NCBI GenBank assembly: GCA_963930775.1
Contig: OZ005690.1
Span: 7,486,225 to 7,550,224, forward strand
Source of the DNA: Cliona cf. orientalis
Lineage: Eukaryota > Porifera > Demospongiae > Clionaida > Clionaidae
Direction: 5' to 3'
Length of the DNA: 64,000 nucleotides
Positions within the stretch are counted from its first letter, which is position 1, and each line of letters begins with the position of its first letter. A model generated the notes under the pieces. It was not told the DNA's origin. It worked only from the letters and a program-made list of their open reading frames with translations, and made no database searches. Below, one piece after another: positions 3,001 through 39,700 of this stretch. Both the position numbers and the translations under genes were made by a program.

Positions 3001-6000
3001 CGGCCCAATGGCACTTCTGAATTTCCACGGTCTGTCCAGTAGATATAACTTCCGTGAACTGCCAGCCCCAGAACATCAGACAAATCTGTAAAATAGAAAC
3101 ATACTAAAGTCAGGATACATGAATAAGTGGTTTCATTGCAGCACACAAGTGCAAAACTTCGCATTTTTGTTTCATTGTACACTGTACATGTACAATTGTT
3201 TGAGGTGAAAATGTTTCTACTTTCATACCACTCTGCAGTATGCATGTGCATGCATCTATTGTTTTTACATGTACATGTATATGTACGTTCACATGATTGT
3301 TTGATTAAGGGCGGCCAGATTCTATTAATACACACTGTATCAGGTTGGATCTTCACGGTGCTGTTTGACAACAATAGTGAACTGCAACTCAAATGGCTGG
3401 TTTAAGAACTACACCTAACAATTGAGGTAAAATCGAAATATAACCTACTAAACAGCTGCAGAACTAGCCTAATGCTATGATTCAGCACAAAAGAACATAG
3501 TGCAGGGCTAGCAATTGCAGCCATGCCCACTAAAATTACCGTATAGCGGGAAATTTTCGAGGGAGAAAACTTTCGCGGATCGGTAGGAAAGGAGCATTTC
3601 GCGGAGAAAATTTTCGCGGAACGTTAAAAGTGGTCACATAATGGGTGTGGCATGCCTAGAATTTCGTGGAGAAAACTTTCGCGGATGGCTGAAAAATCGC
3701 GAAATTCGTGAAAGTTTTCTCCCTCGAAAATTTCCCGCTATACGGTAAAAGGCATGCATATTCCAGTTCGGCTACATGGGGGCATACCGTATAACGGTTC
3801 CTGATACAAGTATTTTAAAATGAAAACTTGGGAATAGCCGAAATGGTCCCTTTTCTTCTGGCCAACACCCACAATAAACAATATACAGTACACCTTGGTA
3901 ATGTAGTTGCAATAACAATAAAAAAAGAAGGCTGACATTTGTATCTTGTCACTTGCCAGGCATGCTTTGTGTGAGCAGCTCAAGCAATCACCTCAAACAA
4001 AATAAAAGTACACGTACACGGGGATGTACCACAAATGTCTGTACATGTACATTTTAATTATTATGTACTGTACATGTAATTCATGAAAATTTCATTGTTA
4101 AATTTTCGTTTTGCACAAAATGACGAAAATTCTTTATTAGTTTACCCATACTAACTTATACAGCGAATATACATGCATAGCGCGCGCTTGAAGTTGACGA
4201 AATATTGTTACGCAAATATTTCTAACACAAAATTTACAAACAAAATTAACACAAATTACGGTATTGTACACATGTACAATTGTATATATACTGTATTTCT
4301 TCCAAAAATTCGGCCCTGAAAAAATTATTTCTTTCAGGCTTTGCCTAATATTTAGAGGATAAAGTGAGCACTCAGCGCCAGATGGCCGAATAATTAGAAG
4401 TACCGGACAAGCAACGCCTTCTGGTTCCTGGCTGCTTTCTGGCTGTGACTCGGCGACAGCGTCAGGTTGTGATTGATGGCGAGGTCGCCCCACAGGTCTT
4501 TTGCGATGAGAGACCGAGGTTGGCTGATAGTGCCTCAAGAACATTGGCATCACCTGCTGCTCTGGCTCCGTCTCCTGTTGCTCGGTGTTAGGCAGCTCTT
4601 TCTGAAAGAAATCTGAAATCTTTCTATGTTTGGGGCTCCTTTGCACACACGATTCCATCTTCCAAGACTTAGTGATCATACACACATACTACGAGGTGCC
4701 TGAATGTGCTATAATTAGAAACTAACTGGTGAAAAAGAATGATAACATTCACCAAAAATTAGAAACTATAGCGCGATCGAGTCCAGGGGTGCCAAATAAT
4801 TAGAAGGGCCGAATTTTTAGAAGAAATACGGTATACATGCAAGTATTCTCATTACAGTCATGCCAACATACCAAGTATTCCTAAAGGAGAATCACGTTGT
4901 CCATCATATTTGACAATCTTATTAATGTCGTCATGGGCATCAGACCAGTACACTAGTCTAGTCAATGGGTCAACAGCTATGTTAGTTGGCTGCTTGATAT
5001 CACCAACTACTCCAGGTAACACCATCCTGTCTGTACCATCCATTCGAGCTCGCTCTACTCTTGGTACATCTTTATCCAAGTCTGTCCAGTACATGTTGCT
5101 ATTAAACATGACCATACATCATTCATCATATTATTACGGTACCACTACATGCAAGTCTATCTATAGTATATACATGTAAGTAAAAGTTGCATCAATTTCA
5201 CCACCTGCTCTCACTGGAAAATTTCTATCATGCTAACTTTTTGTCCTGTGTTGAAGACTGCATAGAGCATATGGTGACCTTTACTACAACTGGTGAAAAT
5301 TTTTTCTACCAAATTTATCTGCAATACAAAGGTGGCTGGACTTGGTGAAATCCCCACAACATGGTCTTATTACTACATTCATCATCTACGTTTATTAACT
5401 TACGCATTCAACGGATCAAGAGCTAGGCCTTGCGGATGCGAGAGATCAGAATTGAACAGTACTTTCCTGGTATGGCTACTGTCAAGTCTCACAACTTCAA
5501 TTTTATCAAGTCCAGAATCAATCCAATAAAGATTACGGGCGAAATGATCAATAGCTAGTGACTCTGGACGACTGATGCTGGTGTTGATCAACACACGCTC
5601 ATCAGTACCATTGATGATGTAGGCACTCATGATTGCAGGAGGATCCACTTCTGTCCAATAAACCTGCAAAACATTAATTTACAATCATTAGCTAGGTAGA
5701 TGTACGTTGCATACATGTACGTACATCAGTACACTGAACTGATATGAATTACAAAGTTGGTTCTTAGCATTAGTTTGGTGAGTAAGGACAGAAGTGTATA
5801 GCTCACCTGACTAATGTGTTTAAAATCACATGTACATGTAAGATGTTGCTATACATACTTGGGCAACACCCGTTTAACTTCAACCCTAAATCGGAAAATG
5901 AAGATATTACCTATAATAATGATTATTGCATGAGGTTGCTTTTGATTTCTTGCTGCTACTACAGAAAATGACACATACCGTAGGTTGGGCTTCAATTGCA

Positions 6001-9000
6001 TAATTTAATTAATGATTGTGAATGAGGCTTTTCAATCACTACATTTTAACTAGTGTCATGCACGGCCTGTTTGGGGGGAACCTGAGATGAGCAGATGAGA
6101 TTCAAAAAGCCATACATGTAGATTATCCAAATTGCATGAAGCATTGATACAGACACAAACAAACTATGATAGTCATAGCTGCCATGTTAATTGCCCAACA
6201 ATTCCCTCTAGGTGAGCTGACTCAACTGTGATTGCAACTGATGACAAGCTTTATATGTGGTTAATGTTCATGGTGATCAGTCTATAATATGTACGTGTAA
6301 ATGCACGAGCGTAAATTTGCAATCCACTAAATTAGAACAGCATACACTGTATATAGGGAATGTGACCAACATACCGTATGGCAGGTAATTTTCGTGGGGG
6401 CTAATTTTTGTGGAAAATCTGAAAAGGCCCTCAAAACTAATTTTCGTGGTTTTAAATTTCGTGACAGCAAGCAGTCCAGGGGCGTGGCACTGCTACAGAA
6501 ACGATGACGTAATCGATACATGCACTCACGATCTTCTTTGTTACTAAGCCATACCTACAGAGACTTGGACAAACGGCATGAGATAGAAGAATATTAGTGT
6601 CGAAGATGCTATCAGCTGGATTACATTGGCTACTGTTGCTTGCTAATACTGGGAAGTGTTTCCCGCACTACCACGATGTTTGTGGCCACGCCCATCATCA
6701 TGGACTCGCATATCACTGTCGGCATTAATTTTCGTGGGTGAGAAAATTTCGTGACTGCCAGGTCACCACGAAAATAATGAAAATTAGCACCCCACGAAAA
6801 TTACCCCCATACATAATAGTTAGAGATTGAGTCTAAGGTCTCTACGCATTTTAAGAGACCTGAAGGCCTGAGGCTGTAGCATCCAGAGTGAAGCGAGGGT
6901 GCTACTAAGGGCTTGAGGGTCTCTTAAAAACATAGAGACCATTGGGGATGAGGTACTCCAACTGATTTAGAATAATACCGTATATGTTCTAATATAGGCG
7001 TCACCCTAATTTAGGCGCCCTTTGAGACCTGCGCAATTTTGTCGGTTCTAATTTAAGGCGCTTTTCCGGACATCAATTATTTTTAGGCGGCGCCTATCTA
7101 ATTGGAACGTATTGCCACGTGCAACTATGGCAATACGCGGTAAGCTTACCATACCATCGATTGATCTATCGAGCTAGCAGTTTAGATGTCAAATTAAGCT
7201 GTCTCCTACATTTATATGGGCACTTACCGACAGCTTTGATGTATTTCTGGAGTTAGAGACAATCGTTCTGATGGCTACGGTACCGACAACTCGAGAATGA
7301 TTCAGCAATCAGAGTAAAATTTCCAAAAAGAACTGAAACTAGAACCATATTTTGTTGTTCTCCACTATAATATTCACTGCCACTAAATAGGACCGATTAG
7401 TGATAGCACTTGTGCTCTGGCAAAACTTCCAGAACCGTTCTAATTGCAGCTCTTAGGCGCCTCCCTAATTTAGGCGCCCTTTGACCTGCTGTGAATTTTT
7501 CGGTTCTAATTGGAGGCGCCTGCGCGATCTGTAATTATTTTTTGGGGGCGCCTATATTAGAAAGTATACGGTATATCAACTGCAACCATGGTAGTTGACC
7601 TGAGGACTAGGCTACTATTGCATTGTGCATCTTTCTTTGCCCTTGGCTAAACTTGTAGGTCTCTAGGTCTCTACGAGAAACAGAGACCAATCAGATCACA
7701 GTATTTGTTACAATTATATTTTAAATGTACACAGATATATATTACCGTATAGCGGGAAATTTTCGCATGGTGCAAATTTTCGCGTTTTTCGCGGATTGGT
7801 CAGCTACCGCGAAAATAAGAACCGCGAAATTTTAAACACACGTGCGCGTATACGCATGCGCGCGTGCGACCGAGCGCGAGCCTAGCCAGGCCAGCTAGCT
7901 AGCTAGCTAGCTTGAGCGCACGCACGTGATACATGAACAACTGCACCTAGTATCTGTAGCTGTGTAAACGAGATGACTCTTTATCAGTATTGACGATAAT
8001 CACTGGACTCTCTCCCCGTCATATCGCGTGTTGTTGTTGACGTGGGTGTGGTCTTTATGGAGAGAAGACGCGAAAATTAAAACCACGAAATTTTCTTCTG
8101 GACGTGTGAATGGCGGATCCGCGAAATTTTGCACCAGCGAAAATTTCCCGCTATACGGTATATCTTATTCACGCAGTAAAGTACTGCTATGTGGGCGAGC
8201 CTGAGAAAATGTGTTTGGTGCATGCAGGCAAGCCACACTCCTCAATCCGAGCACGAGGGTACAACTTAAGCAATACATGGGATGGAATCAATTTTCAGAT
8301 GATGGGAAGTCCAAATAGCACAGCTGAGTCATTGGGATGGATGTCGGAACATTTGTCATCGGCCGAAAACATAAAATAGATTGACTACACATGTTCGTAT
8401 GCTTGATATCAACGTGGTATTGTCATGAGATCAATATGCTATACATTGTAACTCTATTCATTGCAAAACCTTTATCCTACAAATCAATTGATTGCAAGCT
8501 CTTAAATATCTTGGCAATTCACATTTAATTAGATACCCACAGTTAAAATCTGACCTACAGTAATTGTTTATGCACCTACTGACCTAAATTTCCACTGAAA
8601 AAGAAATTAATTTGGTACGGCCAATCAGAATATCATACATGCATGCATACACGTACTAGGCATCTTTCATGTACATGTGTACATACATGTATGATACATT
8701 CAAGTAGGACAAATTTAAATAGTAAAATGTACCCGATGGTCAACTTGATCATATGCAATGAAGACAGTTTCAGTCCCACGTAGATCAATAGGCACAAGCA
8801 CATCAATGTACTGGTTGATTATGTCCAGTGACATCATACGAATGTCAGTTCTGGCAACTTCAAACGAGGTAACACTATTATGAATTTGAGTGAACACAAG
8901 GTAGTTGTCAGGAACTGTGATAGAAATAATACAGATAAAATTAATGTGCATACATGTAATGTTACAATGTACATTTTGGAGATACACTGTAGTCAATGGT

Positions 9001-12000
9001 AGTACTACATGTACATGTACTACTGTACACTTCAACCAAGCACACCCTGAGTAGCATGACAAACAAGGCAATTTAAATGCATACAGTAGTAATTCAGATT
9101 GAGAGCCCAGTTTGGAACAGAACCTCCGCACAATAATCCTAACATAATAATGATGAAAAGGTATATCAGGGTTGCATACAGGATTTTTTTCTGGGGGGGG
9201 GGGGGGGGGGGGGGGGGGAGGGGCAATCTCACGGACGACTTATGTATGTATATGCGCCGCTGCCATGCGTATATACTAGTAAATAAATCACACAACAATG
9301 CTGTGATAACAAACGATTGCTTTTTGCTTGTGTATGTAATCATATTATTTGTGGTGTATATATTACATGTATATTATTATGGAATCCTGGGGGGGGGGGG
9401 GAACTCAAGCGGGGGGGGGGGGGGGGGTGTGGGGGAGATCCCAGTGCGCCCCCCCCCTCTGTATGCAACCCTGTATATCTGTATGTACATGCACATGTAG
9501 TAAATTCAACTTTTGCATTATTAACTATAGGGGAGGGAGCTTATTTGCAGGATTAATAATCAGTATTACTTACATAAACTACTACAAGATTGGTTGTCCT
9601 TGTCAAGCAGAATACCAGTGGGACAACCACACTGAACTCTAGTTCCTGCATTGTCTGGAACTGAAAAGCAAAACACCTCACAGCCACCATTATTAACTGC
9701 ACAACCATCAACTGGATCTGTGGACATACAAGAACACAAACAAGTGATCATTAAGGTTACGGGATAGTATTCGACGCGCAATTTATAAATGATTGCGCAC
9801 GGACACAATTCACGTATGTTTTAATGCGGTTTAGTCAGAAACGCGAACGAATGTCGACCATTTCCAGAAGTAAACAAAAGTCCGAATTTCTGCGTCAAGT
9901 TTTGAAGACTAGAGACTTGAACGAACTGACTTCGCTGTCGTTCACGCTAGTCCATCGATCGGAGCAGGGCCAAGTATAGCGCTTTTTCAAAAACTCTAAG
10001 ATGGTGAGTCATCAGACAAGGTTTTGTCCTGGAGGGCCGCCATTAAGCGAGTCACATGGCAGCTGAGCAGTAAGTTTTTATGTTCGCTTTCTGTTCGTGT
10101 AACTCGACAGAGTTCAAACGCTATACTTGGCCCTGAAGAGACTCGTAAGCTATCGTTTCGTTTGTATGTCAATACATAGAGACTGTTTACCTTGGCAAAA
10201 ACTGACACAGAAAATCGCAATACTTACCCGCGCTTGCAGACAGACAGTGGCAGGTTTGCTTTTCGTTTTTGTGGACCATGGGGCAGGCATCAGGAGCTAC
10301 ATGTACTTACCTGTGCCTTGACTGTGCAAAGAACGTGGACAAAAACTGGAATATAACTGTCTCATTTATTATTCATGTGAACTTTGACCATGCGTGGGTG
10401 GAACACTATCCCGTAACCTTAACATCTATACACATGTAGGCCTACTTATGTACACGTGTATAATATTAAATAAGAACTACTAACATGTACATATAAATGT
10501 ACAGTAGTACATATTGTACATGCATAATAATATGTGACCGTCTATGGGAAAACCCGCCATATGGAATTTTTTGTGAAAATTGAGTTTGATGCATCTATGA
10601 TAAGCTCTACCATAGAGCTAACTCGCGTTCAAGTCCTAGACCGATCGCGCGCTCTGTTATGGAGATACAGCGCTTTGTTTGCGATCGCGCCACACCCTCA
10701 ATAATCGAGAAATTACGGTCTAAAGGCATTGCTATGCACGCGTATGGCGTTTCCGCATACTACACGTGACCCGGAAATCAATTAAATGGACCTGGGCGGA
10801 GCCATTCAAAATGAACGTAAAGATCGAGCAAGAGTTGAATTTCGTTGTTGACGACGACAGCCGATTGTTCTTAGATGCCCAAGAAGCTAAAAAGGTGAGC
10901 AAACGTACAGTAGTTCGATGAATCTAGCTGTAGCTAGATAGAGAATTCTAATTAGCGCCCATAGCAACGGGCTCCGGGTACGGCAGCTGGGCCGACTAGG
11001 TGGGTCAAAATGAAGGCTTATTTCGCCTTTGTAACTTACGGTTAGCCTCCGTACATGATGGCAAAGGTTAGTAGAAAGGTTCTTTGACATGAATATGACA
11101 AAAACTGGACTTTGACATTTTTCAACCTGAGGTACTGAAAATGCGCATTGCGTGAATAGCGCGCGGATCCCATATGCCGGGTTTTCCCGTAGACGGTCAC
11201 ATATTATGATAAAAGCGTGTTTACATGTACGTGTATATTATGTGGCATTGTATTGTGCTACTGTCATAATGTATGTATGTCAACTGCTTATACTCCCCTA
11301 TCAATGGTGCTATCCATCATGCCTCCATGTATATCAGTTATTGATTTACATTCAGCAATAATTTACACCATACATGTACATGTACATGTACATGTATATC
11401 AATGGACCTCTACATATCACACAATGTCAAGCACTGCATCCCAAGCAAACAAAAAAACTTCACCCTAACCTTCATAATGATCATAGAAGAAGCAAAGGTC
11501 ATGAGGACTAAGATCATGGCTCTCAATCAGTGGTGTTATATGCATGTTGTCATTGCTCCCATTCATAGTACATGTATAGATTGCTCCTGGTCTGTCAATG
11601 CTCCTCAAATTTTCATTCACTTCCCTCAATTGAGTCCAGTAGAGAGTTGAATTGATGATAGCAATTTCATAGGGATTGGATTCAACATTGATTTGGGTTG
11701 GACCAGGCTACAAATAAGAAAATGTTTATGATAAAGTGCAGGATTTAATTAGTGCAAGAAAATTAGCTTTCTAGGACTTTTCATAATGTATCAGTGTGGC
11801 AATCCTTACCAGAAAATTGTGCGAAAGTGCAACTATTAATTTTTTTTTACATGTAGCTTGCGTTGTATTCGATAATAATTATTTTATATCCCCTTACATA
11901 GTTTTAGGATAGTTACATGTACATGTATTCTTAATATTGCAAAAGGTACGATATTAATCCCTTAGTGTGTACAGTGCAATATTAATTCCTTTAGAGTGTA

Positions 12001-15000
12001 CTAGTAGTATTGTGTACTTGATATAGAGGTAGAACGATATCATCAGGCAGGGCAAACCTTTGCTCATTGCATCAGCTTTACTCCTGGGTTTTTATTTGCA
12101 ATCATAGTGTTGTAATACCTTGGTTTTGAGTCATGAAGTCTACTTGAGTTTACTACCCGGCTCAGCATGGCAGGTATGCAGTCAGTTTCAAGCAAACAAA
12201 TTATCTAGCCTTGTCCCCAGGCCACTCCCACGTTTTCAGTGTTGCACACGGAAAAGAGGGAGAGCCTGAGAGACGAAATCACGTGAGCGGTATTGTGCAA
12301 TCGCTTTATACAGCAAGGTATAGAACCGTACATGAACCATACAAAACAAATCTTAAAGACGCTATCCGACCTGTACTTTGAAATCAATATTTGAGTTGAA
12401 TGCGATGTTGTAGAAGCAAAGAAACTCCAAGAGTGAGCAGAAATTTGGCGAACAGTTGGTGGCCTTGGGCACTATCGAGATAGCAAGAGAGGTAACGATG
12501 AATTAAATCACCCACTGTGACGTTATACGTCCATACTCAACTCGACTATACCTACCAACCTATAGCGACGCGAATCAGATGTCGACTCATTGGACGCTGC
12601 TTACTGCTACGGTCGTGTACAGTTCTATACCTCGCTGTACAAAGCGATTGTGCAATAGCGCTCACGTGATTTCGCCTCCCAGGCTCACCCTCTTTTCTGC
12701 GTGCAATATTGAAAACGTGGGAGTGGCCTGGGGACAAGGCTACCAATTATCAGCAGCCAGGCTGAATTTCATTATTCTTGACATCCTTGAGTACGGTATT
12801 AAAGTTTTACTTATCTCTTACATTGTTATAATGAGCTGGAGAATGGTGCAGTCATTTTAATACATGTATGGCCTTGGGCTCGAGCCTACTGCACTGCTGC
12901 AATTTAATTGATCGACTGCATTGATGGCAACCTTTACCAGTCACAGAAACAATCTATCACGTGGTGTCTGAACATGCACATTTGAGTCGTTGCTATGCAA
13001 GATCATGCACAAATAAAATAAATATCATAGTGGGTAGACTCTACAAATGTATAAATAGGGATGATACGGATATGCCATATATGTAATACATTACAAATAC
13101 CCAAATATCTCAAAACCGGTAACTTTGTGAAATTTCTGTGTCAAAATCAGAATCTACAGCAAATTATCTATCTAACAAGACCAAGATCATTCATCAAATC
13201 CATTGTACATGCCAGAACCAGATGTTCAAAAAAATGGCTATTTCTCATTCTTTCTTTCTTTCTTTCTAGTTTCTTGGGCTAGCTCAAGATTGCCTTGACC
13301 TCTCATCTTAGTTTAAGTATAAATCCATTCCATTTAGTAGCGCGCAGTGCAGTGGCACGTTAATTTTGACAGTTACATAATAGTGGGTGTGTACGGTGCA
13401 TTAACTACTGGGCATTATCTGATACGCCATTTTGTGATATAATGTGCATGCTCAGAATGTGTTGCCATGGTGAAGTCATGTGACAGCGCCCTGGTCCTCG
13501 GCGATTCCCTAGCGCATGCAGTGCTAGTATTCTAGTGCTCCGCTGGATCAATCAACGATATGAAAGCGCAAGGCTTGAGGAACGGTAAGGTGCTAGGCAT
13601 AAGCAAGCTACTCCCTAGCGCTTGCAGTGCTAGTGCTCCACTGGATAGATCATGGATATGAAGCCTGCACACGGCTCGAGGAGCGATAAAATACAGATTA
13701 GTTGCTGCCAACAATAAAACTTAGAACTTGGTTTTCTCCCTAAACGGAAGTCTCATCGCTACCGTACGTATATATCGGCCGCCTAAAGCTGCCTTCTTTG
13801 TCAGCCTCATAGGCATAGGAATGCAAGTTAACGAGGGGCGTGGTTATGAATTTTGCGCAGTTATTATGATCTTCCATCTTCCACACTGAACTTATTGACA
13901 GCAAACCATGTAAGATAAATTATACTGAGAGCAATAAAGAAATAACAGAAACAAGTACCGTAGAATCCCGCAATTACGCCCCCCCTTTGTGCATGCTAGG
14001 ATTGGGCAAAAGTGGGGAGGGGGCTTATACGCGGGATCCTAACAATTCCGTGTGACGACCATTACCGACCGCCGAATGCCACGTGGGCGCGCGATCTCTG
14101 TACTTTCTCTGGCTGTTTGGTGGGCAAAACTCGAGAAAAACGACAAAGTAAGGCATATTATGACACAAATAGCTAGTTTGCTAGCTGTAGCTACTGTTTT
14201 TATTGACTTATGGACTCCATTTTACAGTCAGGGAGGGGGGGGGCTTATACGCGAGACAAAACTACCTATGCAGGAACTTGAGCTAAAAATGCAGGGGGGC
14301 TTATGCACGAGGGGGGGCGTAATCGTGGGATTCTACGGTATAAAAACAATATAAAATTGAAGGATAAAGTAGGGATGGCAGGGTCAAAAAGTACATAAAC
14401 AGGATTTGTAGGGATAATCACATTCACTATACAGCCCTACACTTGCTTTCTGAGGGGTGCAAAAAACAGTAATATCTTCCACATGCAAGTCAAGAGTGCT
14501 TAACGAACAAGTTAGGTGCATGATAATCGAGAAAAGCAAGTGTAGGGATGTATAGTGGATGTGATTATCCCTACAAATCTTGTTTATGTACTTTTTGACC
14601 CTGCCATCCCTACTTCATCCTTCAATTTTATATTGTTTTTATACTTATTATATACACACCGCTTCCAGTTTCTTGTCGGGGCTCACTCAGGCTCACCCCG
14701 AATCACGTGTGCTTGGGATCTATAGCAACATATTACACTTAGATTCTTGGATACACACATGGGTAAATGCACCTTATACTGCATCATTATGAATAGGTAC
14801 ATTGTACATGCATATAGCACATGTGGCAACTACAACTTTTTTGGAAACATTATCAAACAACAAAATATCCCCCCCCCCCCCCCCCCCCCACCCAATTTCA
14901 AATGTGCTTTTCTTAATAACTGACTTCTGGAATAATATTTATTTTCTACCCTGGGACTGCCTCATACATACACGTACATGTATGTGCATTTAACCAAATA

Positions 15001-22504: not shown

Positions 22505-24673
22505 AAACACTAATTAAACACTAAGTAGAAAAAAAAAAAAGATTTCTGCAATGTTTGGGGGAATTGGGAGCACTTGGGCAGATAATTTTTACACAGGCAC
22601 GCAGAATGGATCGAAATACAAGATTTGATGACAGATTTTTTGATTCACACCTTAGAATTAAAGTTATGGCCCTTTGAAGTTTCCCCACATGTTTGTATAG
22701 GGAAGCCATGCGTTTGCAATGTTTTCCGCCCACGCGCTATGTGAAAAACGGGGAATCCCCGTTAGGCACGCGCACACAAACGTGACGACCTTTACCTACT
22801 TTGGTCAAACTTGGAGTATAGGGTGCCTGCTTGCATTGTATGGCTCTACTAAGCATCCAGATCAACTATGTGGTGGTTTTGGACAATTTTTTTCTGCTTA
22901 GTGTTCTGGTCTTCTTGTTATACACTAAGTACAAATTATTTATACACTAAGAAGTAGAAAAAAAAAAAAAAAAAAAGATTTAAGATTTATATAATTAATT
23001 AATGTTTGGGGGGTTTGGGAGCACTTGGGGAGATAATTTTTACATGGGCACGCAGAATGGGTCGAAACTAGAGATTTGACCCTGGGGGATTTTGATTCAC
23101 ACCTTAGAATTAAAGTTACGGCCCTTTGAAGTTACCCCATATGTTTGTATAGGGGCCGGGCCACGCGCGCACATTAACGTGACGACCATTACCCACTTTG
23201 ATCAAAATTGATGTATGAGCTGCCTGCTTGCATTGTATGGCTCTACTATGCATCCAGCTCAACTATGTGGCAGTTTTCAAACAATTTTTTTTCTGCTTAG
23301 TGTTCTGGTCGCCTTGTTACACACTAAGTAGAAAAAAAAAGAATTTTAATAATTAATGTAATTCACTGAAGACTAGGAAGGAAGCACTTGGGGAGATATT
23401 TTTTACATGGGTACGCAGAATGGGTCAAAATTAGAATTTTGATGGCAGGGAATTTTGATTCACACTTTAGAATTAAAGTTATGGCACTTTGAAGTATTCC
23501 CATATGTTTATATAGGAAGCCATTCACTTGCAATGTTTGCCCAGAAAAAAATTACGGGCGCGCGGGGTACGTTGACGACCCTTTACCAAACATTGTATAT
23601 ATGGCTATACTATGCATCCAGCTTGACTAAGAGGTGGTTTTCGGACCATTTTTTTCCTGCTTAGTGTGTGGTCCCCTTGTTAAACACTAAGTAGAAAAAA
23701 AAAGCAAATTTAAATAAATAATCTAATTCACGGGGAGGTTTGGGAACACTTGGGGGGATAATTTTTACATGGGCACGCAGAATGGGTTGAAACTAGAGAT
23801 TTGATCCTGGGGAATTTTGATTCACACCTTAGAATTAAATTTACGGCCCTTTGAAGTTTTCCCATATGTTTGTAAAGGGAAGCCATGCGTATGCAATGTT
23901 TTCCGCCCACGCGCTACGTGAAAAACGGGGAATCCCCGTTAGGCGCGCGCACACAAACGTGACGACATTTACTTACTTTGGTCAAAATTGTAGTATAGGG
24001 TGCCTGCTTGCATTGTATGGCTCTACTAAGCATCCAGCTCAACTACGTGGTGGTTTTGGACAATTTTTTTCTACTTAGTGTTCTGGTCTCCTTGAAAAAA
24101 AAAATTAAACACTAAGTAGAAAAAAATTAATACACTAAGTAGGAAAAAAAAGCATATTTAAATAATTAAATAATCTAATTCATGGGGGGGTTGGGAGCAC
24201 TTGGGGGGAAAATTTTTACATGGGCACGCAGAATGGGTCGAAACTAGAGATTTGACGCAGGGGAATTTTGATTCACGCCTTAGAAAAAAAGTTATGGCCC
24301 TTTGAAGTTTTCCCATGTTTGTATAGGAAGCCATGCATTTGCAATGTTTCTACGTGAGGGGCGGGGCCACGCGCGCACATCAACGTGACGACCATTACCC
24401 ACTTTGGTCAAAATTGTGTACCCTAGATCTGGAAACTTTCGTATGATAAAGTTTCGTGTAAAAAATTTTTCGTAGAAACGACCCCTTACCTCATTAATAG
24501 TGCATGCTAATTTTCGTAAGATTAATTTTCGTAGCCGCCATCGACTACGAAAATATTTTTACAACGAAAATTTCCAGATTTACGGTATAGGCTGCCTGCT
24601 TGTATTGTATGGCTCTACTATGCATCCAGCTGGTGGTTTTCGGACAATTTTTTTTCTGCTTAGTGTATGGTCT
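22505..24673. repeat. array of five ~400-bp units with inverted ends
   Basis: Units begin ACACTAAGTAGAAAAAA (near 22519, 22945, 23320, 23684, 24109) and end with its inverse (TTTTTTCTGCTTAGTGT). All share CATGGGCACGCAGAATGGGT, CCCTTTGAAGTTTTCCCAT and GCCTGCTTGCATTGTATGGC blocks. Units are roughly 360-430 bp and differ by point changes and small gaps. The last unit is interrupted by a separate MITE (24421-24585). Either a satellite-like array or head-to-tail MITE copies. Confidence 0.85.
24421..24585. mobile_element. CCSTA-type TA MITE inserted in the array, subfamily 'TTTCGTA'
   Basis: CCCTAGATCTGGAAACTTTC to GGAAATCTAAATGCC-type inverse ending TTACGG, flanked by TA at 24419-24420 and 24586-24587. 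Neighbouring units read through this point with a single TA, so the insertion and its TA duplication are directly visible. Iterated TTTCGTA motif. Confidence 0.85.
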
Positions 24674-24751: not shown

Positions 24752-24796
24752 TTAGAATGTGTATGAACTTGTTATAATCAGTCTCTCCTCTTCTCT
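24752..24796 (-). CDS. MON1: MON1 exon 16 (C-terminus and stop)
   Basis: REEERLIITSSYTF followed by TAA; human ends 'KEEDRLFILTPLTY'. Very short terminal exon after a CAATAG acceptor. Confidence 0.92.
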   Translation of the reverse strand, partial: REEERLIITSSYTF

Positions 24797-27700
24797 CTAT
24801 TGTACACACAAGAAGTTAATCTTTTTATTCATGTACATTGTTACCACTTACACTTATCCACCGAATCAATTTATTTCCCAAAAGAATCGCTTGGGATTTG
24901 GCAATAAGTGGATCAAATACAGCATACAAGTCAAAACCAGAAGTTCGCTGCATAACAAAAATTTAATAATATCTATAACTCGAGAGAGCACAAAACCCTC
25001 AGCACGTTGCATGTGTTAGGGGGTAAAGCGTCTATTTTGGGGGGGGGGGGGGGGGGGAGGTACTACATGTATATAACACTGGGGATGAGGATATTATATG
25101 CACAGCAGTGCTGTTTAAGGTTCAACGGCTCACAGCAACAACCACCTTGATGCATATGTAGTCTGCACTGCAGTACCAATATCCAGTCAACTTCCCTCAC
25201 ATGATAGCCGATTATTTAGGACTACATGTATGTTGACAATAATTTCATCTTGAAGGACTATGATGTAAAACCTTGGCACAAGACTGAAGTATACTCGGCA
25301 GTATTCCATGTTCAAGTTGGAATCAGCGATGCCAAAACTGGCAAACAAAGCATTTTTGGTGAAATTCACACAGTTTGAATACTTTGGACTTGCAAACAAG
25401 ATCAATACACTGTATGTAGTAGCAGTTACATGTAGCTTAGTAAACAGACAGATACACGGAAACATGCACACACACACACAAAACAACTACCATTTACCCC
25501 TGCATTGCATGCACTATTAATATACGTACATGTATAGGAGTGACATACCCATCCTAACATAGCTTCTTTGTGTGCCACATGGTACAAGATCTTTGTAGGC
25601 CATGTTTGAGAGTGTATTTTCTGTTGCATGAACATGTACAACTGAAACAACCTGCAGATCACTAAAATGAACTGAAAATATATAAGCAAGAGCCCTCCAT
25701 GCACCTCACGAAAAATTTTACTAAGAAAACTGACTAATCAAGGAGTCTTAATTGCGCATACTGGGCAGAGGTATCATCTATACATACACGTACACATAAT
25801 ATATTAATCGGACACTGACCTCTCTTTATCATCTGCATCAGCATACATATCTGGAATTCGTGGTGATGTCATGGACGAGGTCTTTCGTGACTTGTATATA
25901 AAATGCCTTAGCTCTGGTGCTTGAAGATGATCTATAATTTACGGTATGGTAACAAATCTGAACCATACAAATAATATTATGTACATATACTTGAAGGAGC
26001 TATATAGTCCCACACTATTACCGTATAGCGGGAAATTTTCGAGGGAGAAAACTTTCGCGGATCGGTAGGAAAAGAGCATTTCGTGGAGAAAACTTTCGCG
26101 GAATGCAAAAACTGATCGGATAATGGGTGTGGCATGCCTAGAATTTCATGGAGAAAACTTTCGCGGATGGCTGAAAAATCGCGAAATTCGTGAAAGTTTT
26201 CTCCCTCGAAAGTTTCCCGCTATACGGTATACAGACTATGATATGGGCCATATACATTGTTTTCCATCTACTGTAGTTAAAATTTAACATTTTCATAACG
26301 TTTATAATAATACCGTAGAATCCCGCGATTACGCCCCCCTTTGTGCATGCTACCATAGGGCAAAAGTGGGGAGGGGGCTTATACGCGGGATCCTAACATT
26401 GCCGTGTGATGACCATTACCGACCGTAGAATGCCACGTGGGCGCGTGATCTCCCAGCTGTTTGGTGGATAAAACTTGGAAAAAAAAAGATAAAATAAGGC
26501 ATTATAGCTATTTGTAGTTGTGGCTACTGTTTTTACTTAGCTTATGGTCTGTATTATTTTATAGTCGGGAGGGGGGGGGGGCTTATGCGCGAGGGGGGTC
26601 TAATCGTGAGATTCTACGGTATTACATAATTATATGAAGTGATTGAAGACCAACCTTTACCAGAAAAACACGCGATTCAAAAATTGAACCATGCACACAG
26701 GTATTATAAAATTGCCCAGTTCTTAGTGGCAAATATTTGACATTCTAACTGTGCATGCACCCTTAGCATTACATTATTGTAGGTTTGAAAATTCTTAGAG
26801 AAAATAATTCAGTAAAGGGTTTCAATAATACACGTAGGCATTAATTAGAGGTACTAACTGTTTTTTAGGGGGAGGTGGGGCTGCCAGCCCCCTCCCCCCT
26901 CCCAAGAATGAATTTGTATATGTACATACCGCATAGCTGGAAAATTTGGCGGTTTGGCGGTCGATGATACAACCGCCAAATTAAAATCCGCCAAAATTTC
27001 CAACTCGCATATACACGTATGGCGATCCTGTACCAAACCGCCAAATTTAAATCCGCTAATATTCTTGCAATAGCGATTTTGGGCTCAACTGCCAAATTTA
27101 ATTCCCGCCAATATTTCCGGCTATACGGTATTATAGAAATTTTATCAGCACTAAATATTTTAACTATGGCAAAACTCGAAATTGGATATTTTACTGATTT
27201 TTGAGCAATTTGTGCTCCACATTATAGACGGTAATCTCCCTGCAAATGATTATGACCAGCAGTGTTCAGAAAAGGCCAGTCATGATCAGTTTTGGCCAAG
27301 GAAATTCTGCAGAGTCCACAGCTTATCACTTGATATATTATCAAGAGTAAATACTCTTGTTGATATGTAATGTAGATTACCTGGTAGCTAGCTACATGTA
27401 CATACATTTTTTGGAAGACAAGTATAGTGCAACCTCGATTATCCAGATCTTGGAACCCGATTATCCAGATCAGCTGGACACCAGAAAATATATTACCACC
27501 CATGCGCAGAAGACATGACCAATGACTATGCACCCCACATATGCACACATTTACTTCACATAAAAGATTCCTGGGGTGCATACTTTCACAAAAATTGAAA
27601 ATGATCGACCACAGCATAATTTATTATAGGTGGTGGAAGGCAGGGTATGGCTTTTACATGGTCTCAAACTGTTTAAGATCACTAATTTCAAAATTTTTCT

Positions 27701-30700: not shown

Positions 30701-33700
30701 GGATTACACGAAGAAGGCGAAGTAAAGCATATCAATTTCCCATCCTATAGTAAGATGATCTGAGCAGTTTCAAAAACAAATACATGCATTTAGTCCATTC
30801 CTACAAAATAGGGGCAACATTAAATGACATCCCAAGTAGGAAATCAATTTAATGTAACTCAGCTCAGCCCCAGAATAGGCTACAGACATAATTCAAAGAC
30901 CAGCAGAGAGACCATAAAAAAAAAACTAAAATTTACACGTTAAAGATTTTTCAATTTCATTTTCATTGTCGAGTAATAAGCGAAAATATCCTTATCAAAA
31001 CACAGAAGCCATAACTATGCCACAGTCCAGATGGTCTAGTGGCTAAGTACCAGTCTGCACAGAGAACCCCAATTCTCTTGCCCATGTGGAAGTGAATCCC
31101 GCATGCGAAGTTACGTTTATAATATGGGGATTTTGTACAGGCGAATTCCAACACGGCGGATAAAACAGCTGGTCAACTACAGTCGACGCTGTGTCAATAA
31201 AGCCAGTGCGCATGTAACGCCTGATATCTACTTCCAGGAATCCTACAAGTTAGCTGTAATAGTTGGAAATGAGGGCCAATACCATAGTTGATATGCTCAA
31301 CTTTGCCTTCTTCATATACATGTAACAGAATAGCCGGCACCCACTGCGTGGGCTGAGCCATTCTGTAACTAGTAATACTCAAGTGGGAATATAGCTCGTA
31401 ACTGTGTGTGTGTGAGTGTTAGAAGGATGAGGGTGAGAATAAGGGTACAGCTATGAGAAATGAGACCTATAGATAATAAAGTAGTCAAGTGTGCGGCATG
31501 GTGACAGGAACCAGTTGTTATCAATTTGGAACCCTTTTGTTATCATCTTCTCCTTGATGGCTGTCCCTTCCTTAATCTTTCTCTTAGTCCACTGTCTTGA
31601 TTGTTTGACATGGACTGCCAGTGCATTATTGCTGTGTCACCGTTCTTCACCGCAAGTTTGCGTTCACTCATCCACTGTGTTAGTGTTCTCCCCGTCTCTC
31701 CTACATGTACATGTACACATGTATGTATTCTTTGCCACATTCATATGTATTAGAAGAACAAAGATATCAATATATATTATCAGACCACTCTTTATGGCAA
31801 AGCACATACTCAGACATCTACCAGGAACAGCCTAGATCACAAGGATGCTGTGCACTCAATACCGTGTGAATATGGAGTACATAGGAGAGTCAGGGAGAAC
31901 ACTAACACAGTGGATGAGTGAACACAAACGTGCAGTGAAGAACGGTGACAGCAACAATGCACTGAGAGTCCATGTCAAACAATCAAGCCACAACATCCAA
32001 TGGGGAGAAGCCAATGTACTGGCAAGGGAAGGACATTGGACTAAGAGAAAGATCAGAGAAGGGATACATGTACATGTAGCTATCAAAGGAGAAGAACTTG
32101 AATCTTGATAAAGGGTTCCAAATTGACAACTGGTTCACTGTCGCCATGCCTCACACATGCTTAGGTCTTATTTCCCACAGCTGTACCCTCACCCTTTCTA
32201 ACACTCACACACACACACACACAGACACACACACACACACACGTCACAAGCTATTCCCACTTTCACTGTCAGTCTAGCTGAGGAAGGTCCAGGGGCCAAA
32301 ACGTCCTACTGTTGTTTATGTGACTGTGTCTAGATCTATCTGCTCAAAACATATATTATTAATACGATGGTGTTTGTACCACATTCCTGTGCTTCAGCAG
32401 AAAAATGAGTGCAATACATGTATGTGCATACCTTACTTCTGTACTGAACGATGATATTAGTTACATTTTGTCTTAATGAAGGAGGCATTGACAGACACTT
32501 CACCTGTAAAAAAAAATCAACATCTATTGACAGCTCACATACTGACAAAATTTGGGAGTGAAAACAGGATGTAACTCATAGATCCACATTAGCAGTACGG
32601 TAGTGTCCTGGGCAAGCAAGCACCCATGTACCAAATTTCAGGGGATTAGTGTACATATAGTGTGCACAAAACTTATCCCAGGTAAGTGCCTTATGTCAGC
32701 TAAAATTGCGAGTTATGCTTCAACGACCATAAAAGACACTGGTACCGTAAAGCCTTGCATGCGCTTATTACTCTCGGTGGTACAGAAATACAATTATGCG
32801 CCTATTAGATGACTTGCACTTAAGTTTTGGCCCCGTCCACTGCAAGCGCTCAATCACAAAGCTAGCAAATATGAACACAGCGATTATCAAAAAAGCTCTA
32901 TAATAGTTCGTAGAAATAGGATTGGAAGACATTGCTGGAAGAAAACCATAGCCGGCTTCTTTGGTGAGACTCGCTTCAAAGTCGAGGTCAAGAGTCCAAC
33001 CACGTCTCAGTGGAACATTGCAGTGTTGAGTACAGGTGATCTCTTGCAGCTGGCTGTCCACAAAATTAATACATATACATGTAGGTTGGTGAACAAATTC
33101 TAGCCATGCAGAACATGGATAACTCTTGATTGAACCTTGTAAAGCTAATAAAAATATGTACATGTATAGAGCCAATCCAGCACCATAACAAACATGGATT
33201 GTCATGTACATCATTTACCCCGGCAAAAATGAGAGAGGGATCGGTATCTGCCATGTTGAGAATGTTATCTACAAACTTCTCCGATCCTTGCAAAAGATGA
33301 CGCAGATCAAACCCAGGACTCTTTTCAAAGATTTGATGAAGCTGGGTGTTTGTCAGCACACTTAAGATTTGATTGTAGGCATATCCAAGCTGAATGGCAA
33401 GCTGTAGGGGTAAGATTTGAGTTGGTCATTGCCATGTTGTACAATGTGTAGTATAGTATTAAAGCAAACGGATGCTTGATTGTGCAAGCACATACATGAG
33501 GAGGGAGTGCAAACATCTATGTTTTGGGGTGCATGAATTGACTTACATGTACATGTAATTACACCTACATGTAGCTTAACGTTCTATAGGATAATCATTA
33601 GTACACTCACTGATATTATTTTTATAAAAACCTACATGTATATAAGGCCACTCAGAATAAATGTTTGTTTGAACTAATTTGACTGACTGTAAATTTGTAG

Positions 33701-36700
33701 CCGAGTTTATTACAGGCACATAACATTATACCAACTCAGACTTATAATAGGACTGTCTTAAAAATATATTTAAGCTACCACACAGCACAAGCAGCTGGAA
33801 GACTACAAGAAACGCTACGTACATCTGTCATGTACATGTACTTCAAATTATCATCCTCTCAAGCAGGCAGTCCTACTATTCTGTGGTCATGTTAGTTCAA
33901 ACAATTTATTCTGTATGGTCTAGAATTGTAGCACAACCTCTATTGCAGAAGTATACACCAGGTGAAAATTGAAACTCATAAGAAAAAATCTAGTACGTAT
34001 AATTCTATATAAGATTAATGCAGATGGCATTTGGGAGGTTTATACACGTACACTGTTGAAGCCATCCACCCCTCCTTTGCGAATGGCAACCTTGGCATAC
34101 AATGAATACAAGTATGTTTGATGTCACAGTCATGGGATAATGTGACTAACAGCATGCTATGTGCCAGTTAGTACAGTGAGCATACGCAGATGAAAGCAGC
34201 ACCGAACTTTGAATCTATGCTATTATGGTGTGAATCTATGCTTATGGTGTAGACCACACCCCTCATTGCAGGCCAAGAGCAGCTGCTCAAACTCATCGTG
34301 CAATAGCGACGTTCTCACTCCGCTCGAATGTCGAATCTACCACCAGACCATGACAAAGAGCAGACATTGCCTCTCGCTTTGTTCGAGGCTTGGTGGCCTG
34401 CCAAGCAGGCCTGTCAAAATGCGTGGTACTTGCGCCACTCGCTCGAGCTCGAGAATGCATCTCTATGGCCCCTAGGTCCTGGCAACCTTGTTTGTGCACA
34501 CGGCACAACAATTCTGACCAATAATGAGTCTTCTGAACTTGTAGGAGAACGCATCTTTTATGCTCTCCAGGTTAGGACACGGACTATATAAGAAAATTGT
34601 TGCTCTGAAAAATATTTTTCGTTGTGTATAGTATAACCACAATTTAAGATGGTTCACGTACTTGTGAAACAGACTGACAAGTTTGAGAAACAGCTACAAG
34701 AACCAGGTGTCCTCTGCACATAAACACAATCTGATGGTTGCCAGAAACAATGTAACGAAGGTTGTCCTTGTCATCTTGCACAAAGGAAACAAGTGCTTGC
34801 ATGATTCCAAACAAGTTGACTAACTTGTCTTCCTTTCCATACCTACATGTACATATACATGTATAATTATTATTATTCCTTCATGTATGATACGAATGCG
34901 CAGACACACACAACTCTCACCGCTCACGGAATTTATCACAATGAAACTAACATTCAAAGTACACATGTACGCCAGAATACTGATTCAAACCGTGGAGTTA
35001 TAATTTCGTTCGCAAATGTGCTACAGTGTACACATACGTACGTAATAGAGTAGATGCTCATACATGTACACTGTAACTATACATGTAGGTTTCTATTATT
35101 AGAGTGGAGAACTTTATTGTACAGCTGAAGAAGGACCTCGTGTCCGAAATGTACTGTACTACTGTTGCTGATTATCAAGAACTACGTCATTAATAAAGCT
35201 CTATTAGTTCTCCACTCTAAAATCTTACATGTACATGTACTATACCTTGCCTCTGATGAAAATTATCATACCACTAGCATACACCACCCATTATCCACTG
35301 AGGCAAAAACTGCACATGCTCTGTATTGCATAACAATAGGGCACCAGTGTGAGCTGAGTTGATCCGGACGTGACCTCAATCTGCATGTGGTTGCTGAGCC
35401 TCAAATTGAATAGGGAAATCCCACAGTGTATGTGCTCACCAAAAATTGAACTGAGAAAATTGCCGTATGTCCAACGATCTCTTCTACGCTAGGTTCAAAT
35501 TCTGGGTTCCAACAACCTTTTATGTGAGCTACACATTTAATTTTGAAACAGTCCTTCATTGTAATTTCACCATATTATGTAATTTCCATCATCTTTTTAC
35601 ATGTACATCGTAATTAACTCATAAGTTGGCCAAACGTTTTTGGTTGATTGGGATTCGGGATGTAATTCTGAATGCACATACATGTACATGCACGTTGGGC
35701 GCTCGCAAGCCCTATAGGTACAGTAGAGCAAGGTACTGATCTTCGGACATAGGTATTTTCGGACATCACTAAGCCATCTTCATTCAATCCGATGCACCTT
35801 CTCAACATAAACAGGTAGCTCTATCCCATAATAATTACATTCTATAATCTGTGACCATATTGCTAAGTGACGTGGGTACCGTACTAAATCAAAGATCTTG
35901 TGCGAAATATTAATTTCTGTCCAGGAGTATGAATTTTCGACTAACCTTCATAAAAAAATAAACCAAAAATGATCAACTCTCTCCAACACCGATACGGCTG
36001 TCCTACTACATGTACCTTGCCGTTCTTGACTGGTAATTGTAACTTCTGAAGCCCCTCCCACTGCGCATGCGCAGTGCTTACGTGAAGTCGAGTCCTGGTA
36101 TCAATGTTCGTTCAGTATGAATTTTCGTCCGCGCGGAAAAGCCATTGTCCAGGGGAAGAGCATGTGTACCAGCGTCTGCACCACAACGAGAATTTCTCTT
36201 AACAGTTCAGAGGGAAATTTTGATGGTCATTTAGAAAATAGGGTATCAATTGTCAGGTGAATAACACCAGATCTTCTAAGTTGTCATCATATATCCCGCT
36301 GAACTGTTTAAACAACTTGGTACACTATCGTCATGACGCAGACGCTGGCACATACGCTCTTCCCCTGGACAATGGCTTTTCCGCTTGGGCAAAAATTTAT
36401 ATCGAACGAACATTGATACCAGGACTCGATTTCACGTAAGCACTGTGCATGCGAGGTGGGAGGGGCTTCGGCAGTTGCAATTATCAATCAAGAACGGCAA
36501 GGTAGTAGGAGAGTCGTATCGGTGTTGGAGACAGTTGATCACTTTTGGTTTAGGTTGGTCAAAAATTCATACTCCTGGACAGAAATCAATATTTCGTACA
36601 AGATCTTTGATTTAGTACAGTACCCACGTCACTTAGTACTATGGTCACAGATTATAGATGGTAAATACTATGGGGTAGAGCTACCGTATAGCGGGAAATT

Positions 36701-39700
36701 TTCGTTGGTGCTAATTTTCGTATGATTGACTAAAACACCCTTAGAATAAATTTTCGTGTTTTTTATTTTCGTATGCTTGCTGCTGGAGATTGCGCGCATG
36801 CACAGCTGAGAGCGCTCACACTTACTTACGTGCGGTATACAGCATCACTGGCTTCCTTGATCGTAATCGATGCTGATAGCGGTCCACTGGGACCAGAAAG
36901 GTAACTCTGTTTCGACGCCTTGGCAAAGAAACGATAAAGAGACATCGTTCAGTGAGCTAGCCTTGCATTTAGCACCAGCCACTAACGACTGCGTGTGGCC
37001 GTGGTAGGCGTATAGGTCAAAGGTCACTTGCGAAAGGAAACAAATTCATACGTTCAAATTTTCGCAGTTTTTATTTTCGTATAAGGGATGGAGCATACGA
37101 AATATACGAAAATTAGCACCATACGAAATTTCCCGCTATACGGTACCTGTTTATGTTCAAGAAGGAGCATCAGGTTGAATGAAGTTGGCTTAGTGATGTC
37201 CGAAAATGCTTACGTCCGAAGATCAGTACCTTACTCTACATACATGTACATGTACGTTGTCATGGTATGGCAATAAAAAAAAAAACACTTCCTGTATGAT
37301 TAACAAAAAGTACGGAAACTTGGCCCCTTCATGCAGACTGAATATGAAAGTTAACAATCTTAAAATTCTGAGTTATTGTAATGAAAGCTTATTACGCATA
37401 ATAATTATGTCATATCTAGGCCATCCCTACTTATAGAGTACCGTAGTTAATCGAATACATTGTTATTACAACGCATGATCCAATTTAACACAATAAAATT
37501 TAATTATGAATTCTCATAACGTTTAATGTATATGGGGTGATTGACGACCTTTACCAGAAAAACGTGTTTTTCAAAATTGAAATTATTTTTTTCCATGCGT
37601 AGTATTAGATTAAGTATGGTATACCGATTCCGATTCGATAGCCCCGTTGACACTAGACCCTTAATCCAGATTAGAATCTGGAGTAATCCAGTTTCTGTGT
37701 GAATGCCTTAATCCATTTTTAACCCGGATTAGAATCCACATCCTGATGTACATGTACATGTACATGTAGATTACATGTTTACAAAATAATGGGCCATGAA
37801 AATGTTAATCCAGATTAAGCACTAGTGTGTAAACGCAGTTTAAACCTGTTCAGTTTAATCTGGATCAGTGTGTGTAAACAGGGTTATAATTCATTAATAT
37901 TATACATGACATTGTATAATATTATCTGTATGCAAGCTAACCTGCTATATACTGGTTTTCCAGAGAGACTAAGAATAAACACATGCTTGGAGTGCTGACA
38001 CCATTTTTGTGAGTCAACATCTAATAATATAGAAAACATTATTATTGTTCAATAATGAAATTAATGTCACCAGCTTTACCTTCATCTTCAAATTCCCTGT
38101 GATCTAGCTCAACACTGTCAATACGAGATCTTGATGCCTCTAGAATTTGCAAGAAAGACTGCACATTACGATCACAGAGCATAGTAGTATCTGCTTAATC
38201 ACTTCCAACCAAGTGTACATGTACGTATATAAATACAGTGAAACCTCCTCATAGCGGTCACCATGGGACCAAAGTACATTGTACATGTACAGTATACATG
38301 TGTATACGGCTGGGATATTGAGGTGGCTGCTTTGCCGAGTTGCATACAAGCATGGTGAGCTCCACCAATTTCAATGAAATTTTCATGTAATTAGATCGCC
38401 ACGTGTATATACAGGTACAGGTATACATACACGTACATGTATTATACAGATAAACAAGTATGTTTAATGTCACAATCATGGGATAATGTGGTTAGTATGC
38501 ATGATCATCTATTAACAGTACATGTTTACAAAACATAGAGAGGTAGTTCATGCACAAACAATATCCTGCCTGGGCAAGATTGCCCATTAGTACCGTGCGC
38601 ATGCGCAGATGGAAGCGGTTGCAGAGGCCACACCCCTCATAGCAACTAAGTGTACGTGTGCAATGGCTCTGCTCGAACATTGCTACCGGACTACTGACTG
38701 GTATGATGAAGAACAGGCAATGGACCTCGCCTCTCACTTCGCTCGAGGCTCGGTGGCTATTGCCAGTGCCTGCTTAGCAGGTGTGTGGTGCTTTCGCGCA
38801 GATCGTTCGACAATGCAAATGCGCACGCATCTCTAGCTAGCTGTAGCTATGGCCCGAGGCACTCTACTTGGTGCACACGGCCCTACTGACCAATCCTGAG
38901 CCTTGTAGTGCGGACTTTCTCATAGCAACCGGGCGCATCTAAGACACATTTCCATGCCCTCATGTAATGACACGGACTATATAAGAAAATTGTCACTCTG
39001 AAAAATATTTTTCGTTGTATATACATTGTAGTATAACTATTGTAGTCTTCTTCTCAGACCCCGCCCTCAAGGAGGAGAAGGGTGTGGTAACATTGAGCTC
39101 TTTCTGGGGCCTATTTCTGAATACTGACACACAAATCAGATTTACATGTACATGTACATGTGTTTGTCATGTGGCTTATACTAGAAATTATCCAAAGAGG
39201 GAGAAGATTGATCAATTGAAAGGCACACTACAAATATCATATACATGTACAATGTACATAGAAAGTTTCGCCAATTTCACCACCTACTCTCATTGGTGAG
39301 AGTTTTTTTCTTTGTCCAGTATTTTAAAAGATTACGTATAGGTTACATCACGAGGTAGAGGTCTCTACGGGATTCTATAATATCGCAGCTCATTTCAAAG
39401 GTCGTTTCTGATTGGTCAAATCGGCTAAAATTGGTCACGTGAAGGGGCGGGGTTTGGGTTTGGTATAGGGTTTTGTATGGAAGGGTTTGAAAACAGCTGC
39501 GGGATAGTTCACGGGATTTACACACCGAGGGCCGGAGGCCCAAGGCTGTGTAAATCGCGTAGAGACCGAACCGAGTGATGTAACCGACTTGTACCATGGG
39601 CTACGTGGTCCTGACAACGTATCTACGGCCCGGCCTAGCAACTACAGCGCCGGCCATAAAAGGCTCGAGCGCGTACCTAGCAACAGTTCAAACCATCGTC

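Follow-up and report, generated by a model that had tools for sequence, protein, structure and literature searches.

CCGTA-ended elements of the window

The stretch analyzed here, 64 kb of contig OZ005690.1 of the sponge Cliona cf. orientalis (the window; G000:C2:7486225-7550224 in a searched genome of 217 Mb in 149 contigs), carries twelve short inverted-repeat elements that sit at TA and end in CCGTA or a close variant. The window holds 40 copies of TACCGTA and its reverse complement taken together; 200 dinucleotide shuffles gave 4.2 ± 2.0 (maximum 10). Genome-wide the bare heptamer is not enriched, at 44,345 copies (22,199 + 22,146) versus 51,068 (25,611 + 25,457) for the reversed control; that control lacks CpG, so we relied on the window shuffles instead.

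The window was scanned blind for TA-flanked inverted pairs with ends at most one base off CCGTA, with 30 shuffles as control. This yielded 13 inverted pairs, 12 once overlaps were removed, and none in the shuffles. A sequence-only reading of the window had listed 11 CCGTA-ended elements at TA, and the observation was confirmed: ten were recovered blind, the reading's coordinates starting after the TA and so two bases inside those of the scan. The eleventh (6374 in that reading, 6372 here) was absent from the scan pairs because its right end has decayed and reads ATACATA. It is a real element despite this decay, since approximately window 6370-6812 is matched at 39 other genomic places at 87–90% identity (40 scored of 1677 candidates). 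One CCGTA element, at 37439-37621, had been overlooked. The elements are as follows, with strand given as "." throughout.

3537..3747: TTTTCGCGG boxes, 211 bp, terminal inverted repeat (TIR) 40/42
4289..4833: left end CTGTA, TAATTATTCGGCC boxes, 545 bp
6372..6816: TTTTCGTGG boxes at 15/31/67/82; decayed right end placed by eye
6976..7573: CTAATTTAGGCGCC boxes, 598 bp
7743..8160: TTTTCGCGG boxes, 418 bp
13956..14340: GATTACGCCCC / GGGGGCTTATACGCG motifs, 385 bp
24419..24587: left end CCCTA, TTTTCGTTG type, 169 bp
26019..26229: family of 3537, 211 bp, TIR 39/42
26311..26621: family of 13956, 311 bp; first 27 bases identical to L031 (below)
26927..27130: left end CCGCA, TTTGGCGG boxes, 204 bp
36682..37145: TTTTCGTAT boxes at 15/31/67/82, 464 bp
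37439..37621: right end CCATA, 183 bp, TIR 15/18; a relative lies inside locus L052

In kind these are ordinary pogo-derived miniature inverted-repeat transposable elements (MITEs), of 169–598 bp with aligned TIRs of 18–42 bp (6372 having lost one intact end). The scan demanded a flanking TA at either side. Beyond the TA the two flanks disagree (for example TTA...TAT at 7743), which leaves no room for a longer target duplication.

One further scan pair, 35877-36622, was not counted as a CCGTA element because its arms extend beyond TACC. It is an inverted repeat of another element type, with 56 of 59 arm positions matching.

Full-length relatives encode pogo-type transposases

The sequence-only reading predicted full-length relatives with the same ends, and seven exist, 2.3–3.1 kb long, with TACCGTA ends and a pogo-type (DDE_1) transposase. 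A genome search for DDE_1 scored 150 places of 210 candidates. The first 30 loci were scanned for any TA-flanked repeat, a procedure blind to end sequence: three had CCGTA-ended inverted repeats (L025, TACCGTAAAAGTTCTAATTACAGCGCC; L031, TACCGTAGAATCCCGCGATTACGCCCC; L034, TACCGTATCCGATCTAATTAACGCGCC), eight were CAGT-ended and 19 had no clear pair. Another 20 DDE_1 loci gave one more CCGTA-ended element, L051. Elements L085 (3,116 bp), L086 (2,644 bp) and L087 (3,105 bp) are complete and hold two genes. All seven have TA flanks on both sides, which the scan required and which hence speak for consistency only.

DDE_1 scored above the Pfam cut-off in all seven complete elements and HTH_Tnp_Tc5 in five (L025, L031, L034, L051, L086). 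The pogo-superfamily combination of DDE_1 with a CENP-B/Tc5-type helix-turn-helix (HTH) was found, the HTH of L085 and L087 by profile comparison only. A profile of five N-termini from the group with TTTTCG/TTTGGCG boxes aligned to four HTH_Tnp_Tc5-type N-termini over 165 columns (probability 95.6, E 1.3e-8). The L087 transposase is a 510-residue frame without interruption. Identity to it was 69, 51, 53 and 56% in the catalytic region of L089, L091, L088 and L085, respectively, versus 63, 44, 44 and 47% in the N-terminal region, so the catalytic region is the more conserved. L031 itself has a 24419-type CCGTA element within it (L031:366-793), which gives a relative age.

Window elements were compared with coding and HIRAN-carrying loci elsewhere in the genome (L numbers; the HIRAN gene is described below). 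Ten of the 12 resemble such an element, at least at their ends. Two of them, 7743 and 4289, are internal-deletion derivatives of the two-gene elements L085 and L086: bases 1-274 of 7743 correspond to L085 3138-2856 (79%) and bases 277-418 to L085 164-23 (96%), while bases 1-119 of 4289 correspond to L086 3159-3041 (87%) and bases 144-545 to L086 959-516 (81%). Both ends of 26927 are 84–93% identical to the two-gene element L087. The ends of 13956 and 26311 match those of pogo element L031 at 71–100% (72–93% for 13956 alone), and the right end of 24419 matches L091, L067 and L068, all from HIRAN/DDE_1 pairs, at 85–92%. Ends of 3537 are 81–89% identical to coding element L085; 3537 and 26019 also resemble the HIRAN-carrying non-autonomous elements L059-L064 (82–100% over 26–50 end bases). 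More distant partners were found for 6976, whose last 117 bases are 72.5% identical to an L034 end, and for 36682, whose ends are 79–84% identical to L085.

Ends were also counted genome-wide, allowing up to three mismatches on both strands, with reversed patterns as controls. TACCGTATAGCGGGAAATTTTCG ends numbered 7,345, TTTGGCGG-type ends 3,153, ATTACGCCCC-type ends 1,163 and TTCTTCTAAAAATTCGGCC-type ends 1,515; the reversed controls for all four gave 0 matches.

These comparisons bear on the idea that the MITEs were moved by an unrelated TA-targeting transposase (another Tc1/mariner, or Harbinger) and have pogo-like ends by chance. TA is a common target, and 6372 and 37439 are without a coding partner, as that idea would allow. 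But six elements (7743, 4289, 26927, 13956, 26311 and 24419) resemble transposase-coding elements or HIRAN/DDE_1 pairs at their ends, two of the six with clear internal-deletion structure, and the reversed patterns matched nothing. We give this explanation almost no weight.

A second gene, HIRAN or HIRAN-Ulp1

Five of the seven complete elements (L034, L051, L085, L086, L087) carry a HIRAN gene inside the TIR pair and convergent to the transposase, which the sequence-only reading had not foreseen. HIRAN (PF08797) scores exceed the cut-off of 24.7 in L085 (32.5), L087 (28.5) and L086 (27.0), and also in L061 (29.2). In L085 and L087 a Peptidase_C48/Ulp1 domain (PF02902; scores 32.7 and 24.5, cut-off 20.7) is joined to HIRAN, its His-Asp-Gln-Cys residues identified by eye only. 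The L085 second frame holds HIRAN and Peptidase_C48 in 345 uninterrupted residues; in L087 the two domains are split over two overlapping frames. The L085 second protein, searched against PDB sequences, had no match at E 0.01.

Searching the genome for HIRAN produced a list of 97 hits, with 150 of 186 candidates scored and the L034 and L051 domains missing from it. Nineteen of the 97 lie within 4 kb of a listed DDE_1, versus 0.57 expected under uniform placement. Fourteen of these pairs are convergent, four divergent and one on the same strand. The 601 bp upstream of HIRAN were read at two further HIRAN hits and at every one of the 19 pairs except that in L023. Every one of the 14 convergent pairs had an end there (13 CCGTA, 1 CCATA, one mismatch allowed), where chance would give about 0.06 exact TACCGTA per 601 bp, judging from the 22,199 forward copies genome-wide. 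The end is present too at L083 and L084, HIRAN hits without a transposase. Motifs of the window families recur on these HIRAN-side ends: that of 7743 in L066, of 24419 in L067/L068, of 26927 in L070/L071/L073 and of 4289 in L080.

Co-insertion of HIRAN beside pogo in repeat-rich regions, with HIRAN no part of the transposon, is almost as improbable to us as the unrelated transposase. Clustered repeats make uniform placement a forgiving null, 5 of the 19 pairs are not convergent, and the HIRAN of L078 and L082 apparently sits in a separate element. Co-insertion does not account for the HIRAN gene lying within the same TIR pair in L034, L051, L085, L086 and L087, for the end upstream of HIRAN in 14 of 14 convergent pairs, or for an arrangement kept across subfamilies of divergent sequence.

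L065, L076, L023, L078 and L082 were left out of the two-gene count. L078 and L082 do have the end, but their transposase falls outside that element: the L078 end separates the two genes, and the L082 transposase is 3 kb away on the other side. Divergent HIRAN/DDE_1 sets at which no CCGTA end was read lie at G000:C17:4476084-4477552, C18:3400488-3401994 and C17:5067561-5069421, perhaps representing another arrangement.

For C48, 22 hits were listed in a search of the genome, so few that the domain must seldom be recognised. L085 accounts for one of them; another, at G000:C6:9300361-9301449, is convergent with a DDE_1 and is probably a further second gene of this kind. L059-L064 are non-autonomous, with TACCGTATAGCGGG ends, a partial HIRAN gene and no transposase. 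They measure ∼650–715 bp (1,077 bp in L060), and one of their ends is itself a palindromic mini-element of 103–104 bp (decayed in L063), present three times in tandem in L061.

One transposase clade, one terminal heptamer

We built a tree from 57 of the 150 listed DDE_1 domains; 30 rows have no end type assigned. All 11 CCGTA-ended domains, plus that of L053 (which has one candidate TACCGTA end without a matched partner), form a single group with support 100/99. The CAGT-ended (10) and GCGTA-ended (6) rows fall outside it. The CCGTA end thus goes with one transposase lineage, as the sequence-only reading had suggested. Catalytic domains of the group fall to 19% identity, yet the first seven bases of the element, TACCGTA, are identical in 11 of 11. 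That figure is partly selected, as L085-L091 were fetched after end typing on the HIRAN side and L051 came from a CCGTA scan.

The motif, by contrast with this constant heptamer, changes along with the transposase. We compared subterminal bases 8-46, which exclude TACCGTA, each element being represented by a single end, which for L034 and L086 was that on the transposase side. Over the 11 elements, motif similarity correlated with catalytic-domain identity (Mantel r = 0.75, 0/5000 permutations); reducing the close group to a single member gave r = 0.73 (25/5040).

A separate DDE_1 group (L040, L041, L043, L044, L050, L057) has GCGTA/GCATA ends and an ATTATCG-type motif. Its ends have CGTA in common with the CCGTA group in five of six cases.

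Iterated boxes at mostly set positions

A crude test for iterated motifs compared the best 8-mer per arm (up to 150 bp, one mismatch) with 100 shuffles. These counts were dropped as a measure, since they lacked strength and in part reflected runs of poly-C and AT, and a fixed-position box test was therefore used, its box windows chosen after inspecting the ends. It covered the TTTTCG/TTTGGCG and CTAAT types; the C-rich 13956/26311 and GCGCATG families lie outside it. Eight TTTTCG/TTTGGCG-type ends entered: six HIRAN-side ends and the corresponding ends of window elements 6372 and 36682. L066, L070/L071/L073 (near-copies of L085, L087), L067/L068 and the other window ends were outside this eight-end test.

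Boxes stand at positions 15, 31, 67 and 81–83 in six of the eight ends. In the other two, L074 (15, 31, 56, 72) and L078 (15, 31, 57, 71), the second pair is displaced by roughly a helical turn. Within an element, boxes are alike at 8.85 of 10 bases (n = 48), versus 8.00 (n = 112) for the same box across elements and 7.76 (n = 336) for different boxes across elements. A permutation test with slightly different windows gave a within-element mean of 8.46 against 7.65 permuted (standard deviation 0.13, maximum 8.19; 0/2000). Two spacers examined as a contrast had no such pattern (5.0 within elements, 5.5 between). Five CTAAT-type ends with boxes near 13, 30 and 72, chosen from 12 such ends for having forward boxes, gave a weaker result (19/2000). 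By eye, the box consists of a stable AT-rich half and a variable half, the latter being TCGCGG, TCGTGG, TCGTAT, GGCGG or GGCGA, or else GCGCC, TCGGCC or CGAAC. The sequence-only claim that the motif changes in concert across the whole element is supported by this within-element likeness beyond permutation, which is what one would predict were a binding domain to change along with all of its sites.

Two other histories could be proposed for the boxes, and both seem to us unlikely, to about the same degree. One is joint descent, with boxes inherited along with the element and no co-evolution of binding. The Mantel correlation and the agreement of subclades would look alike under it. Where it differs is in predicting the greatest likeness at the same position between elements; we saw instead 8.85 within versus 8.00 between, a permutation result of 0/2000 with 19/2000 in a second group, and two spacers without the pattern. 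The other is that the array was renewed when a single box was duplicated, or spread by gene conversion, inside an end, in place of stepwise selection for binding. This would make boxes alike within an element, local duplication does occur (the tandem triplication of a short end segment in L061), and spacing differs in L067/L068. Yet spacing is kept in six of eight ends despite dissimilar spacers, the remaining two shift boxes 3-4 by about one helical turn, and long conversion tracts would bring spacer sequence along.

Interpretation

We read the window elements as non-autonomous copies of several lineages of one pogo-type group, in which the boxes would be bound, CCGTA cut and the second gene accessory. 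We would put the probability of this reading at roughly 85%. The interpretation first drawn from the sequence is supported, and was right in substance; we infer from the sequence comparisons that the transposase would both cut at CCGTA and bind the boxes.

Several observations weigh against this reading. The long branches of L031, L053 and L090 make the inner order of the tree unsure, and the Mantel correlation could equally be expected under common descent alone. The HTH_Tnp_Tc5 match of the TTTTCG/TTTGGCG group is sub-threshold (best 20.1 versus 22.2, in L087) and is absent in L085, L088 and L091. No HIRAN was seen in complete elements L025 and L031, and those of L034 (23.7) and L051 (21.7) score slightly under the cut-off. 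C48 was not found in the second frames of L034, L051 and L086, and is seen in only two, L085 and L087, of the seven elements. The divergent pairs L065 and L076 have no CCGTA end in the 601 bp read, and divergent pair L023 has no TACCGTA in the locus and a transposase of the CAGT clade. L067/L068 do not keep box positions 67/82, and among the compared loci none was found as a coding partner for 6372 or 37439. Finally, the crude 8-mer test was passed (no more than 5 of 100 shuffles as good) in just 18 of 38 arms, so the loose claim of an iterated motif in every subfamily is weak for several elements; what stands of it, strongly, is the part concerning the eight TTTTCG/TTTGGCG-type ends with boxes at mostly set positions, and, less strongly, that on the five CTAAT-type ends.

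On the pogo reading, a mechanism may be proposed as follows. The catalytic part of the transposase would read or cut the invariant TACCGTA, while its N-terminal helices would dock it on the iterated boxes through their AT-rich half and variable, CG-containing half. Should the binding domain change, all boxes of the element would have to follow, and subfamilies would therefore diverge into systems that do not cross-react while having a common cut site. Deletion copies that retain the box arrays could amplify, with the parent of each subfamily mobilizing its own copies in trans.

In HLTF, the HIRAN domain binds the 3' ends of DNA; the targets of Ulp1-type proteases are SUMO or related tags. Such proteases have been proposed to aid transposition via repair factors (PMC2836005). 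The HIRAN protein may accordingly be an accessory that works where the DNA has been excised or broken, or on repair factors tagged with SUMO or ubiquitin; given HIRAN end-binding and the repair proposal for Ulp1, the second protein would be expected at the excision or repair step. More tentatively, and at somewhat less than even odds, the whole might be a system whose cut site and binding sites run on separate clocks, with boxes rewritten at helically phased positions, transposons insulated from one another and a dedicated HIRAN(-Ulp1) helper that would tend the cut ends or remove SUMO/ubiquitin from repair proteins.

Natural series in which a DNA-binding protein co-changes with many copies of its site are rare. 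This one genome holds coding elements for about 12 end types, of which four or more number over a thousand ends, and the comparable box positions make steps of protein-DNA co-evolution, and the splitting of families from one ancestor, directly testable. The HIRAN and HIRAN-Ulp1 genes would suggest that pogo transposition involves a host repair or SUMO step, one that goes unmentioned in the literature examined, and they may serve as a marker by which to trace the lineage in further genomes.

Other features of the window

46490-52063, + strand: uninterrupted 1,857-residue polyprotein frame of a BEL/Pao retrotransposon (Peptidase_A17, DUF1759, DUF5641)
57991-59340, + strand: FAD (flavin adenine dinucleotide)-binding frame, 449 residues
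60136-60720, + strand: CARD-domain frame, 194 residues

Comparison with known systems

CAGT ends are presumably linked to Tigger, a pogo group. Tigger belongs to the same superfamily, and CAGT-ended DDE_1 elements are present in this genome. In our tree, which contains no reference Tigger, their transposases lie outside the CCGTA clade.

With the pogo superfamily of the IS630-Tc1-mariner group, as set out in the sections available of one account, the elements share DDE_1, an N-terminus of HTH_Tnp_Tc5/BrkDBD type, a TA target, short TIRs and the size range (1.2–5.2 kb) (PMC7386202). Pogo elements are described there with one or two transposase open reading frames (ORFs) (PMC7386202). The HIRAN gene distinguishes the elements found here; a text search of the main text of that account turned up neither HIRAN nor a protease. 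DNA elements in general may hold additional ORFs, according to the part seen of another source (PMC7325037).

Passer, going by the accessible descriptions, has BrkDBD plus HTH_Tnp_Tc5, as do L031 and L034 (PMC9976928, PMC7386202). No BrkDBD was found in the L025, L051, L086, L085 and L087 pieces. The last two catalytic D are 35 residues apart in L025, L034 and L087 and 36 in L031 (by eye). L034 thus combines BrkDBD, HTH_Tnp_Tc5 and DD35D spacing, whereas L031 has both motifs with a spacing of 36. By the same descriptions, Passer has a single ORF and TIRs mostly under 30 bp (PMC9976928, PMC7386202). Five of our seven complete elements differ in having a second gene, and L025 and L031 show none.

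A Ulp1-type protease domain also occurs in other DNA transposons, Ginger1 and Mutator-like elements (PMC2836005). As far as the text available to us goes, the domain is C-terminal in Ginger1 transposases or Mutator-encoded (PMC2836005). In the pogo elements described here, a separate convergent gene contains it, joined to HIRAN. In the open-licence literature, with Repbase and subscription journals outside the scope, we found no description of CCGTA-ended pogo elements or of HIRAN genes in DNA transposons, nor an accessory of the HIRAN(-Ulp1) kind described for any pogo element.

Subterminal arrays have parallels as well. In Fot1, CACTA, Ac/Ds and Hermes, several short boxes near each end are transposase binding sites, and the arrays here are alike in form. 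They are distinct in that, among the subfamilies of a single genome, the boxes change in concert while mostly keeping their positions. What sets the elements apart from these systems is the split between an invariant end and concertedly rewritten boxes, together with a convergent HIRAN or HIRAN-Ulp1 gene.

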